From the IMG/VR virus record IMGVR_UViG_3300042458_000296, positions 1 through 37,037 of that record: 37,037 bases of DNA. One strand, 5' to 3'. Positions 15,508 to 36,760 of this stretch are shown here, piece by piece (the first letter of the stretch is position 1; each line of letters opens with the position of its first letter). Both the position numbers and the translations under genes were made by a program. This DNA comes from a virus. The notes beneath the pieces are model-generated. The model was given only the letters and a program-made list of their open reading frames with translations, searched no databases and was not told where the DNA came from.

Positions 15508-16276
15508 TAGTGTTCCCTTGAGTATCACTCTTAGTAGCCCCAACTATTGGGTCAAACAATAGTACGGACTTAGTTTTCTTGTTATATTCACCATGTCTAA
15601 GGATGCGTACACACCTAGCCATAGCGAGACAGTAATCATATCCATATCTATCCATTTCCTGAGGCTTAGCTTGGTCATAAGCTGCCAATACGGCGGCTGT
15701 CCAGTTACGGGGATGGACATACTTAAGCCACTTCTCTGCCTTGGCAGGTCCCCACTTCCAGATACCGGGGATATTATCAGTCGTATCACCCATGATCCAT
15801 TGCTTGTGAAAGTTAAAGTCAGCGGTATAAGTATCAAGTTCCAGAGGTTTAACTTCCTTGTCTGGGTTCCAATGCCACCCCGGTACAGACCGGAGATCTT
15901 TGTCAATGGTCACAGCAATAGCCTTGTTACCCGAAGCCATGAGTCCCATAATATCATCAGCCTCTAGGGTAGGAACAAAGAGTATATCATTCTGTTTAAT
16001 TAAATCAACAGCGTATGATAAACTATCTGGTGCTTGTTTCTTTACATCCCGATGAGCTTTATATGGTTCCCACACTTGTCTACGAAAGTTATCTTTACGA
16101 TCACAGGAGATAGCCACATATACTTTCGTTACTCCTACGGGAGTCCATGCCTTGACATCATGTTCAATGCGCTCCGCAAGGTACTCAATGCCTTCTTGAT
16201 CTGCCCAAAAGGCAGCACGATAGGCAATGATGTCTCCGTCAAGCACAGCAGTATCAGGTCTTGGTTGGCTTATCAT
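15497..16276 (-). CDS. 5'-3' exonuclease (T7 gp6-like)
   Basis: A 259-residue FEN/5'-nuclease family protein. In T7, gp6 degrades host DNA and removes primers. Acidic metal ligands are visible: VLDGDIIAY (D13, D15), TLEADDIMG, and TIDKDLRSVPG. These are followed by the helix-three-turn-helix KQWIMGDTTDNIPGIWKWGP that grips DNA. The start overlaps the kinase-like gene by 23 bases (GGAAGACGATG). The last codons contain the P(dut) element. Confidence 0.9.
   Translation of the reverse strand: MISQPRPDTAVLDGDIIAYRAAFWADQEGIEYLAERIEHDVKAWTPVGVTKVYVAISCDRKDNFRRQVWEPYKAHRDVKKQAPDSLSYAVDLIKQNDILFVPTLEADDIMGLMASGNKAIAVTIDKDLRSVPGWHWNPDKEVKPLELDTYTADFNFHKQWIMGDTTDNIPGIWKWGPAKAEKWLKYVHPRNWTAAVLAAYDQAKPQEMDRYGYDYCLAMARCVRILRHGEYNKKTKSVLLFDPIVGATKSDTQGNTNEH
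15531..15551 (-). promoter_or_regulatory. Putative phage RNA polymerase promoter P(dut)
   Basis: Minus strand CCCAATAGTTGGGGCTACTAA. It shares CAATAGTTGGGGCTACTA with the copy at 36740-36760 and closely matches those at 32369 and 23995. It lies inside the 3' end of the exonuclease gene and about 25 nt upstream of the dut start, a good place to drive dut, nrdJ and the virion block. Basis: repeated sequence plus position; activity is inferred. Confidence 0.7.
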
Positions 16277-22740: not shown

Positions 22741-22775
22741 AAAAAGGAAGGGGGATTTCTCCCCCTCCCTTCCTA
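22741..22775 (-). terminator. Intrinsic terminator between rusA and thyX
   Basis: On the minus strand a purine-rich arm GGAAGGGAGGGGGA pairs with TCCCCCTTCC around a GAAA loop (12 pairs including G-U), followed by TTTTTT. It ends the SSB-RusA transcript before thyX and is a likely middle-region terminator. Confidence 0.85.
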
Positions 22776-23965: not shown

Positions 23966-23994
23966 ATTTCCTCCTTTCTAAAAAATAATATCTT

Positions 23995-24014
23995 CTATAG
24001 CCCCAACTATAGGG
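23995..24014 (-). promoter_or_regulatory. Putative phage RNA polymerase promoter P(ssb)
   Basis: Minus strand CCCTATAGTTGGGGCTATAG, a copy of the element at 36740, 32369 and 15531 with TATAG for CTACT at the downstream end. It lies about 30 nt upstream of the gene preceding ssb, between the citrate-synthase-like gene and the ssb block. The downstream flank is AT-rich (AAGATATTATTTTTT). Confidence 0.7.
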
Positions 24015-32346: not shown

Positions 32347-32368
32347 CCAAGGTTCCTTTCTTCGTACT

Positions 32369-32390
32369 TATAGTAGCCCCAACTATTCGG
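32369..32390 (-). promoter_or_regulatory. Putative phage RNA polymerase promoter in the early block
   Basis: Minus strand CCGAATAGTTGGGGCTACTATA, differing from the 36740 copy only at the edge (CCGAA for CCCAA). It sits 23 nt before the 32346 start. Just upstream two short hairpins (TCGGCA/TGCCGA and CCGG/CCGG) occur in a 98-bp stretch without a gene (32347-32444). Basis: repeat and position. Confidence 0.65.
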
Positions 32391-33648: not shown

Positions 33649-33929
33649 ACTTCTACCTCCGTCCACTTACTAACTCCATTCATCTTATTGATAGTCTTCT
33701 TAAGTGAGTCAACATACTCCTCAAGTTTACCCACAGTAGCGGCATAATACTTAAGGGTATTAGTAAACCCTTCATTACCTGTCTTCAAGATAGCATTAGC
33801 ATCCTGAAGTCTCTTATTAGCCTCGACTAACTCTCCAATCTTATCAGAGAACTCAGACTGAACAGCCTCAAGGTGTACAATGTACGCTTGTGCCGCAGTC
33901 AACATCTTCTTTACTTCTGTTTCGTTCAT
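33645..33929 (-). CDS. Coiled-coil protein, 94 residues
   Basis: Almost wholly helical with heptad-like spacing (MNETEVKKMLTAAQAYIVHL, KIGELVEANKRLQDANAIL). AAGGAGACAGC ribosome site. Start overlaps the upstream gene's stop (ATGA). Function unknown. Confidence 0.6.
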   Translation of the reverse strand: MNETEVKKMLTAAQAYIVHLEAVQSEFSDKIGELVEANKRLQDANAILKTGNEGFTNTLKYYAATVGKLEEYVDSLKKTINKMNGVSKWTEVEV

Positions 33930-34180
33930 GCTGTCTCCTTCTTAATAAAGTAAAGATACCCTTCGAACTTAATATCAAAGGAGTCATTGGACATCTCTCT
34001 TGCCCACTCAAACACACTTTCCAGAGTATCAAACTCTAGTGCATTAATGACATAAGAACCCTCACCCTTATAGGCGAAGACCTCAAATCCTTTAACACAT
34101 GACTCAACAATAATACGAGCACCCTTCTTAAACTCCATCTCTACAGTCGGTTCCCACTCAGCATTAAAGCCACTATACAT
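33926..34180 (-). CDS. Hypothetical protein, 84 residues
   Basis: Starts MYSGFNAEWEPTVEMEF, with a beta-rich first half and a helix (LESVFEWAREMSND). The ATG at 34180 has AAGGAGAATGAT; an ATG at 34231 is inside the hairpin element and is not used. First gene after the non-coding element. Function unknown. Confidence 0.65.
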   Translation of the reverse strand: MYSGFNAEWEPTVEMEFKKGARIIVESCVKGFEVFAYKGEGSYVINALEFDTLESVFEWAREMSNDSFDIKFEGYLYFIKKETA

Positions 34181-34223
34181 ATCATTCTCCTTGTTAAAGA
34201 AAGAAAGTAAGTCAGACGAAAGA

Positions 34224-34253
34224 TATACCATAGGTTTCCCTACGGTATACCGT
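34224..34253 (-). repeat. Direct repeat copy A of the 30-bp tetraloop hairpin
   Basis: Thirty bases identical to copy B at 34412-34441 (188 bp apart). Just outside the repeat one arm base differs so a G-U replaces a G-C pair, keeping the stem. Bounds one side of the non-coding element. Confidence 0.85.
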
Positions 34254-34411
34254 GATAGGAAATAGATTCACTAGGCAACTATCATACCTAGTGAATAGTT
34301 ATTCTGTATGCCTACGACAAGCATAGTATCGGTAACTAACCTTTGCTGATTGTTCACGTTTTAATAGTCAGCAAACTATCTAACATTGAGGAGGATGTTA
34401 GCAACCAAAGG

Positions 34412-34441
34412 TATACCATAGGTTTCCCTACGGTATACCGT
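34412..34441 (-). repeat. Direct repeat copy B of the 30-bp tetraloop hairpin
   Basis: Thirty bases identical to copy A at 34224-34253. It bounds the other side of the element and begins two bases after the stop of the 34443-34709 gene. Confidence 0.85.
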
Positions 34442-34442
34442 A

Positions 34443-34709
34443 TTAGACATAGTGAAGGACTTGCGTCACTTCAATCAGACAAACATGCATACATGCACCC
34501 TTATCGTGGCATATGCTAACCCATTGATTAGCGGAGACTTGTCTCATATCAATCATGATGCTATCCCTAGCCCATCCGGGCAAGGATTCAGTTACCATGT
34601 CCGCAAGACGGGCTTCCTTAACATCCACCATATCAGTGAATGTACCCAATGGACGACTCAACTTCTCGTTAACATTGGCATCCAAACTCCGCGATGTTAC
34701 TACGATCAT
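34443..34709 (-). CDS. Hypothetical protein, 88 residues
   Basis: Starts MIVVTSRSLDANVNEKLSRP; middle helix MVDVKEARLADMVTESLPGW, then a Cys/Met-rich end (CHDKGACMHVCLIEV). AAAGGAGATACT ribosome site. The three-Cys end could bind a metal. Function unknown. Confidence 0.65.
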   Translation of the reverse strand: MIVVTSRSLDANVNEKLSRPLGTFTDMVDVKEARLADMVTESLPGWARDSIMIDMRQVSANQWVSICHDKGACMHVCLIEVTQVLHYV

Positions 34710-35329: not shown

Positions 35330-35629
35330 TTACAGACCAAACTCAGCAAGAACATTCGATGCTTCATTAGCAGCATTGCTCTTGTTAGTACCGGGAGCAG
35401 GTAGACCAACCCACGAATTAAACTCAGCCCGTTCATCTCGATCAAAGCCGAGATGACCACCACGAACCAACAGAGCATTCATCTGACCAAAGACAGACGA
35501 TGCAATGCCCTGCGTAGTATGCTTAGCATTCTTAGCCTTGCAGTACAAGTAATCATACACCGCTCCGGCAGTCTCCATATCAGCAGAACGACCCTTATTC
35601 ATGAAAGTAATGAGAGTATTCTTATCCAT
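35330..35629 (-). CDS. First early gene, hypothetical protein of 99 residues
   Basis: Starts MDKNTLITFMNKGRSADMET; helical in the middle (AGAVYDYLYCKAKNAKHTTQ) with a C-terminal AANEASNVLAEFGL helix. GGAGAATAATCACT precedes the ATG. As the first well-supported gene of the early block it may act against host functions, but no family is recognised. Confidence 0.7.
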   Translation of the reverse strand: MDKNTLITFMNKGRSADMETAGAVYDYLYCKAKNAKHTTQGIASSVFGQMNALLVRGGHLGFDRDERAEFNSWVGLPAPGTNKSNAANEASNVLAEFGL

Positions 35630-35671
35630 AGTGATTATTCTCCGAAAGAGGATGAAAGGATAGAACAATTC

Positions 35672-35741
35672 TACCCTCTAGCAATACCCTACGAAAGAAC
35701 GCAGGGGATTCTAGAGGGTACTCTAGTGCCAATCTAGAGTA
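35672..35741 (-). promoter_or_regulatory. Leader with competing hairpins before the first early gene
   Basis: Minus strand: TACTCTAG pairs with CTAGAGTA (35719-35741); TACCCTCTAG pairs with CTAGAGGGTA (35672-35720), enclosing a further stem CCCTGCG/CGTAGGG. The middle block CTAGAGTACCCTCTAG can instead fold on itself (CTAGAG/CTCTAG), so alternative folds exclude each other. It ends about 30 bases before the ribosome site of the first early gene, which fits an attenuator or an RNase III leader (inference). Confidence 0.5.
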
Positions 35742-35784
35742 TCCACCATCTTACGTACTGAGATATCTATCGCTTTCGCCTTTA

Positions 35785-35933
35785 CTATACCTCAGTCTTA
35801 TTCAATCTCCTCACTTGCTCCACCTCTTGGGGCTGCAAGTTACGCTTATTGAACGATGCCCATAGGGCATAGCACTCCTCGTGCCACCTCCTTACGTCAG
35901 AATCATCGGCTTACCATTAGTGCGAGGATTCAT
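35785..35933 (-). pseudogene. Possible small gene interrupted by a -1 frameshift
   Basis: Frame 0 begins ATG at 35933 (MNPRTNGKPMILT, stop at 35892). The -1 frame, open through the overlap, reads DDSDVRRWHEECYALWASFN then KRNLQPQEVEQVRRLNKTEV to a stop at 35785. The second part has normal protein character and lacks its own ATG. A single-base change or a programmed shift would give about 49 residues. AGGT near the ATG is a weak ribosome site. Confidence 0.3.
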
Positions 35934-36234
35934 CGGGTTACCTACTAGGACGGCTTATTGGATGCGTTCCATATCGTAGGGGAAGTTCTGATAACATTCA
36001 TGGATTACGGCACTACTACCCCCCTCATGTCGGTGAGGGATCCATCGGCACTCAAGCCGGGATTCGTGCAATCTCCATGACATCACCTCCGACAACCCTT
36101 CGGGCGTTGGCTTTACCTGCTACGATGTCCCTTGAGGGCGGTAGATCCGGTAAGGTGCGATCAGGTCGGCGATTCGTATTCGCTGACACTTAACAACGCA
36201 TCAGCCGGGAAAATCCGCAACCACAAGCCGCAAA

Positions 36235-36323
36235 GTCCGATAACTTTATCCCTCGCCACCAAGGTTATCGGACTTTGATCCCCACAGGTTATCGGACGCG
36301 CCACGCCCCTCAGGTTATCGGAC
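36235..36323. repeat. Iterated 12-bp repeat array AGGTTATCGGAC
   Basis: Direct copies at 36262-36273, 36286-36297 and 36312-36323 (24 and 26 bp apart), plus an inverted copy at 36235-36246 that differs at one base (GTCCGATAACTT). The inverted and first direct copies extend to a 14-bp perfect inverted repeat (CAAAGTCCGATAAC). Spacing near multiples of a helical turn suggests protein binding on one face. Confidence 0.8.
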
Positions 36324-36328
36324 ATGGC

Positions 36329-36365
36329 GGGATGACGGGGGGTGCGCCGGGGGGATTTAGGGGGG
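36329..36365 (+). other. Canonical G-quadruplex motif
   Basis: Plus strand has four G-runs of 3, 6, 6 and 6 (36329, 36337, 36349, 36360) separated by ATGAC, TGCGCC and ATTTA, fitting G3+N1-7 four times. It lies six bases after the repeat array and is striking in an otherwise AT-leaning genome. Confidence 0.7.
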
Positions 36366-36554
36366 ATACCCCTTCGCTAATTTTTGACCCCTCTAGTCGA
36401 TTCCTAGATTGAGTAGGGATCCCCCTAGCTTGCCCTGTGGAGGGTTGTTTGTGTTGATGTCCTCCGGTAGCCCCAGAGGGATCCGGGGACCCCATAGGAA
36501 ATCGACAAGGGATTAACCGGGGGGTAAACCCCGGAGTGCTCTATTCTCTGAATA

Positions 36555-36584
36555 ATCCTAGATCCCCTTTCAGGGACCTAGGAT
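36555..36584. other. Hairpin in the control region
   Basis: ATCCTAGATCCC pairs with GGGACCTAGGAT (12 pairs, one A-C mismatch) around CTTTCA. On neither strand is there a clean U-run, so its role (terminator or binding site) is open. Confidence 0.5.
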
Positions 36585-36609
36585 CTGTATGTTTATATAA
36601 TATTGTAAT

Positions 36610-36735
36610 TAACACTTAGGTTAACTAGGGTTACCCTTAGGTTACCTAAGGGACTATGTATTACTATATAATATAATAACATAATTTTAAAAACTTAAAG
36701 ACAGTCTAGGTTACTCAAGGTATCCCTTAAGTATC
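36610..36735. repeat. AGGTTA-type short repeats and a 19-bp palindrome
   Basis: Several variants of AGGTTA/GGGTTACC occur at about 11-20 bp spacing; the best palindrome is CCCTTAGGT-T-ACCTAAGGG at 36634-36652. A very AT-rich block (36655-36705) lies between them. T7 has arrays of short CCTAAAG-like repeats next to its terminal repeats; resemblance is suggestive only. Confidence 0.45.
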
Positions 36736-36739
36736 TATC

Positions 36740-36760
36740 TAGTAGCCCCAACTATTGGGC
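36740..36760 (-). promoter_or_regulatory. Putative phage RNA polymerase promoter at the head of the control region
   Basis: Minus strand GCCCAATAGTTGGGGCTACTA. It overlaps the stop codon of the incoming gene and points toward the early block. It shares 18 bases exactly with the dut-side copy (CAATAGTTGGGGCTACTA). It also forms an inverted repeat (CCCAA/TTGGG). Confidence 0.7.

Follow-up and report, generated by a model that had tools for sequence, protein, structure and literature searches.

A putative small-RNA cassette punctuated by 13-bp hairpins in the early region of an uncultured T7-polymerase phage

RNase III sites in the RNA of phage T7 are long and irregular in shape. Like the hairpins described here, they are located between early genes in a phage whose RNA polymerase is of the T7 type (PMC4858673), but our hairpins are uniform 13-bp tetraloop hairpins with a UUU tail, and an independent conserved RNA lies between them. 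Intrinsic terminators likewise combine a GC-containing stem, a tetraloop and a T-run, and the hairpins at our locus do form a stable stem-loop of this kind; however, their T-run is three long, where a U-tract of about six or more is expected, and their stem length is fixed near 13 bp. Elsewhere in the same genomes, GAAA-capped hairpins of 14-15 bp are followed by five or more T. The Mimivirus "hairpin rule" (PMC4402537) offers a parallel in that 3'-end marks are set by hairpin structure and not by sequence, but Mimivirus is a eukaryotic virus that polyadenylates its transcripts and has its own RNase III-like enzyme, and no RNase III domain was seen here in the ten records searched. The pistol ribozyme (RF02679) is, like the core of our element, a structured phage RNA, and in one relative (L094) the two have the same orientation and share a non-coding array; it is pseudoknotted, and the core has a candidate pseudoknot but shares no pistol consensus. 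The AbcR1/2 RNAs carry the anti-Shine-Dalgarno motif CUCCUCCC in a hairpin loop (PMC8844928), which the core loop CCUCCUCA resembles; the core differs in being phage-encoded, in showing no sequence homology to AbcR1/2 and in having another loop in its distant homolog L094. Finally, GOLLD and ROOL (PMC12286853) are ornate non-coding RNAs encoded by phages, but they are much larger, and our element has no Rfam match. A literature search found no description of the arrangement reported below, although most subscription papers lay outside the search and this is no proof of absence.

The window, by which we mean the whole 37,037-nt stretch of the virus record that was analysed, encodes a T7-type RNA polymerase, and most of its major genes lie on the minus strand. 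It belongs to a clade of uncultured freshwater and marine T7-polymerase phages with at least 182 relatives in IMG/VR, several of them on contigs of 60-68 kb. Among named or isolated phages the polymerase is at most about 28% identical and no cultured relative was found, nor was there a relative of the polymerase in GTDB genomes. Some 6 kb upstream of the gene for this polymerase, in the gap separating two small early genes, the minus strand at 34222-34441 carries two GAAA-capped 13-bp hairpins flanking a non-coding core (Table 1). The original prediction held that the two outer hairpins are identical over 30 bases, and 34224-34253 does equal 34412-34441, but these coordinates clip hairpin 2 by two bases, and the complete 13-pair hairpins differ at a single base. 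Both have the predicted 13 pairs and GAAA loop, whereas the single G-U pair ascribed to each is found in hairpin 1 only, hairpin 2 having two. The tails read TTTGG and TTTCG. The 218 nt are filled, as proposed, by six usefully sized stems together with one of 3 bp, and hold no gene-like frame; of the mechanical open reading frames, just two touch the element, one extending the next gene upstream and the other running antisense from a TTG.

Table 1. Parts of the element and its neighbouring genes, in window positions
Feature	Position	Strand	Description
Upstream early gene	34443..34709	-	88 aa; no family match
Hairpin 1	34410..34439	-	13 bp, GAAA loop, UUU tail; begins 3 nt past the stop codon of the upstream gene
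Core stem-loop 1	34380..34401	-	7 bp; loop CCUCCUCA, anti-Shine-Dalgarno-like
Core stem-loop 2	34342..34375	-	8 bp; loop of 18 nt, constant in length
Core stem-loop 3	34331..34341	-	GGU/ACC, loop UAGUU; could pair with AACUA at 34296-34300
Core stem-loop 4	34307..34325	-	inside the most conserved block
AACUA	34296..34300	-	candidate pseudoknot partner of stem-loop 3, by complementarity only
Core stem-loop 5	34266..34296	-	12 bp; both-sided changes at 7 of 11 compared pairs
Hairpin 2	34222..34251	-	13 bp, two G-U, GAAA loop, UUU tail; closes the non-coding core
Pyrimidine-rich leader	34181..34221	-	CGUCUGACUUACUUUCUUUCUUU with AAGGAG ahead of the next gene; retained in relatives without the element
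Downstream early gene	33926..34180	-	84 aa; no family match

Folding of the 218 nt on the minus strand gave a minimum free energy of -78.6, compared with -50.2 +/- 4.7 in 200 dinucleotide shuffles, none of which was as low (z -6.0), and the core without its outer hairpins still has a folding z of -3.3. The plus strand of the element folds equally well (z -6.0), and folding energy alone therefore cannot assign the strand; the sense (minus) strand was assigned because of the G-U pairs, the strand counts and the covariation given below. A competing fold, in which hairpin 1 pairs with hairpin 2, is similar in energy to the local hairpins and is the one preferred by the consensus fold of the close relatives, with the local hairpins returning when pair distance is limited. 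This ambiguity is inherent because the two hairpins are nearly identical. No chance match of the hairpin and no further copy of the element were seen in the 37-kb window.

The core is present in four other records, being identical in G003, 92% identical in G004, 81% in G005 and, over 86 nt, 79% in L094, whose polymerase is 66% identical to that of the window; a further record, G009, equals G005 over the element. The core family comprises four distinct sequences only. In the consensus fold of the close set, 6 of 63 pairs changed on both sides, with missing cells confined to alignment gaps. When the five core helices were registered by hand so as to include L094, 15 of the 36 pairs showed both-sided and 3 one-sided changes, with 1 of 144 cells broken; this register was picked for pairing and so is biased towards structure, and the arms were found at constant or near-constant loop lengths. 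Compensatory changes in relatives, the check that the original prediction had proposed, were found in both comparisons, and the relatives show that the core is structured at the level of RNA. The most conserved block reads GAUAYUnnGCUUGUCGUnnGCnUAnAGAAUAACU, and in all four sequences the UAGUU loop of stem-loop 3, which precedes this block, is complementary to the AACU(A) at the end of the block, a candidate pseudoknot with no covariation support.

Stem-loop 1 changes on both sides at 5 of its 7 pairs across relatives, and its loop CCUCCUCA is invariant in the four close records (window, G003, G004 and G005). However, L094 carries the loop ACAAGAUU in its place, so the anti-Shine-Dalgarno motif is not general to the core family, and a scan of all the RNA families for such loops was convincing only among the close relatives of the core. 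The same scan met twin loops of the UCCUCAA type in L099 and L104, where a tandem pair of small hairpins, their loops of the UUCCUCAA type, lies directly behind a boundary hairpin (L104:1229-1325 and L099:1882-1977), one loop copy being altered in L099. The core matches no known RNA family. Rfam searches with the element gave no credible match at the gathering score or at E 10, the latter returning four chance-level matches, none on the core and one on hairpin 2 (10.6 bits against a cut-off of 330), and isolated phages had no DNA match to the element.

All perfect hairpins were listed for the window and for the early regions of 19 relatives, and hairpins were counted in 25 non-redundant early regions (332 kb). 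Hairpins with a 4-nt loop numbered 6, 35 and 12 on the sense strand at 12, 13 and 14 pairs, respectively, compared with 2, 4 and 1 on the antisense strand and 1.3, 0.7 and 0.3 in shuffles, counts that are not independent events because the 25 regions are mutually related. GAAA loops on 13-pair stems were found 24 times in sense and never in antisense or shuffles, and about ten distinct hairpins of this kind were left after similar sequences were removed. Two of the 35 sense hairpins, which have GACG loops and lie in G008 and G012, are the P3 stem of pistol ribozymes and were excluded from the class; in 14-bp cases the extra pair is often a G-U formed with the leading T of the tail. The pattern of the class is exactly 13 pairs, a tetraloop that is mostly GAAA and a tail that is mostly UUU. 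Members agree in length, loop and strand but vary freely in the sequence of the stem, which argues for recognition as RNA. Many members lie 3-28 nt past a stop codon and the remainder behind structured non-coding units, and in the window and four genomes scanned nearly full length the class keeps to the early region. Outside it, each genome has one or two GAAA-capped hairpins with longer T-runs that look like ordinary terminators. The 15-bp GAAA hairpin at 22741-22774 of the window, which has a long T-run, lies ahead of the thymidylate synthase gene and is kept in relatives, likewise looks like an ordinary terminator.

The outer pair was originally taken as the unit that brackets a core, an idea that is weakened by the relatives. 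G019 carries one hairpin without any core, three hairpins with different RNAs in between are present in G007, and in G015 and G016 (polymerase about 48% identical) a pair about 200 nt apart surrounds unrelated sequence in the same role. Given these single, triple and differently filled cases, each hairpin seems to mark an end independently of any partner. A second type of boundary hairpin, with the loop UGAAAUAU or similar, the base GGUAU/AUAUC and then UUU, was seen in records with a polymerase identity of about 66% (L088:2638, L094:2640, and L099:1981 and 2428).

The sequence enclosed in G015 and G016 is itself a different RNA, likewise conserved, in which 15 pairs change on both sides. An RNA family B is common to G018, G007, L094 and L099, with 11 both-sided changes, and a family C, found behind differing hairpins, to G007, L088, L094 and L099. 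The array in L094 comprises 1.1 kb of non-coding DNA in the order family B, family A (the core of the window), an unnamed family, a pistol ribozyme (L094:2431-2507, 57.3 bits, same orientation as the core) and family C. Pistol matches of 38.9-60 bits were found within early non-coding arrays in 6 of 34 relatives (L094, G008, G012, G024, G027 and G032), and the RF02679 covariance model had no match above the gathering score in the window. An exact 21-base pattern derived from these pistol copies is present in 40 IMG/VR stretches, some of them contigs over 100 kb. L059:16468-16678 resembles a manA RNA at 44.1 bits and E 4e-8, short of the gathering score, which is 55.2.

Gain and loss of the element are modular. 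Another gene replaces the upstream gene in G004 and G005, with the element retained, and in G005 the downstream gene also differs and the core is kept. In G001/G002 and G006 the same upstream gene is present, its stop codon running straight into the pyrimidine-rich leader, and the element and the downstream gene of the window are absent together. These empty sites show no clear target-site duplication, so that gain and loss are most simply read as exchange between phages by homologous recombination. A protein-based search with a neighbour gene gave no match, the neighbour proteins matched no recombinase family, and no phage-encoded RNase III or ProQ domain was found in ten records. At the head of the early region, about 950 nt at 35629-36610 are mostly non-coding, fold strongly (z -5.9) and have no Rfam match; six close records show hardly any variation over roughly the first 250 nt and a great deal in the remainder, and the position is non-coding in ten records, more distant ones included. 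Within this stretch, GTCCGATAACC is present at 36232-36323 as three direct repeats with an adjacent inverted copy, kept in several relatives, which look like iterons or operators. A 25-nt motif with the sense strand CCCAATAGTTGGGGCTACTA occurs four times (15527-15551, 23990-24014, 32366-32390 and 36735-36759), possibly as promoters of the phage RNA polymerase.

We propose, with a probability of about 0.55, that the element is a modular non-coding early RNA cassette. It would be transcribed from the minus strand inside an early polycistronic transcript, with hairpin 1 as the 3'-end element of the upstream gene and hairpin 2 as that of a small RNA, which at about 190 nt would be made up of the core and hairpin 2. 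The 3' ends of the RNAs would be set or protected by the GNRA-capped 13-bp hairpin with its UUU, either because some transcripts terminate there intrinsically or because a host nuclease cuts in the U-rich stretch behind it, and the small RNA, once released, would act in trans early in infection. The strongest hint is that the CCUCCUCA loop is invariant while its stem changes by compensation, which suggests base pairing with Shine-Dalgarno regions; given the other loop of L094, it may mark a changing target site or be a wrong lead. Hairpins acting as 3' ends would explain why flanking hairpins are alike, why single hairpins occur and why different RNAs share them. Against this reading, a U-tract of only three U is weak for an intrinsic terminator. 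Among the roles first suggested, a processed stable RNA fits best, given the sense-strand structure, the compensatory changes and the placement among non-coding RNAs that include pistol.

The hairpins could instead be mRNA processing or stabilising signals only, comparable to the five sites at which RNase III cuts T7 early mRNA (PMC4858673); together with the core they would keep the two adjacent mRNAs apart and shield them, with no job of its own for the core. Their position behind stop codons and the lone hairpin of G019 agree with this, but the core is conserved where its neighbours are not, its pairs changing in compensation and some unpaired segments staying invariant, the hairpins do not have the long irregular shape of the T7 sites, and the lack of a phage RNase III domain in the ten records searched means that a host enzyme would be needed; we consider this alternative unlikely, while giving it real weight. 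A cis-acting leader of the downstream gene, be it an attenuator, a riboswitch-like element or a translation control, is a less probable explanation. Hairpin 2 lies 41 nt ahead of the start codon, and the leader has a good Shine-Dalgarno sequence, AAGGAG, with which the loop CCUCCUCA could pair. However, the core is kept where the downstream gene (G005) or the upstream gene (G004 and G005) differs, and in L094 it is followed by RNAs rather than by a gene.

It is doubtful that the early transcript is cut by the core acting as a self-cleaving ribozyme of a class not yet described. Even at E 10 the core is matched by none of the known ribozyme models, the family has four sequences only and the two sides of the pseudoknot show no concerted variation, against which stand the candidate pseudoknot, the highly conserved linkers, the pistol ribozyme in the same L094 array and the precedent that searches near phage genes and other ribozymes have yielded new classes (PMC4604425). 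More speculative still is a broader version, in which the early regions of the clade are ribozyme-bearing arrays of non-coding RNA, the 13-bp hairpins, free in sequence, punctuate them and are measured by something, and the core is a new self-cleaving class; if true, a core ribozyme would process the early transcript.

A DNA-level element, such as a protein-binding palindrome or the replication or excision signal originally entertained, is disfavoured and very improbable: the plus strand folds and each hairpin arm includes the palindrome GGTATACC, but full pairing of the hairpins relies on G-U in sense RNA, the sense excess is 35 to 4 (24 to 0 for GAAA loops), pairing is kept while stem sequence is free, occurrence is almost only in the early region, and neither a recombinase match among neighbour proteins, nor a DNA-mobility signature, nor a second copy was found. 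A mobile or excision element is likewise not supported (no recombinase match among neighbour proteins, no clear duplication at empty sites, no second copy in the window). A CRISPR-like or TIGR-like array was rejected on spacing, there being two repeats, 188 nt apart, with variable spacing in relatives.

We class the element as a putative small-RNA cassette of a phage, punctuated by structure and found next to a ribozyme class already known. It defines new families of structured RNA and, for a phage clade without a cultured member, a punctuation signal that consists of structure alone. Early non-coding RNA may thus be something in which these phages invest besides small proteins. The core is small enough for quick in vitro tests, and the arrays are a good hunting ground for new ribozymes.
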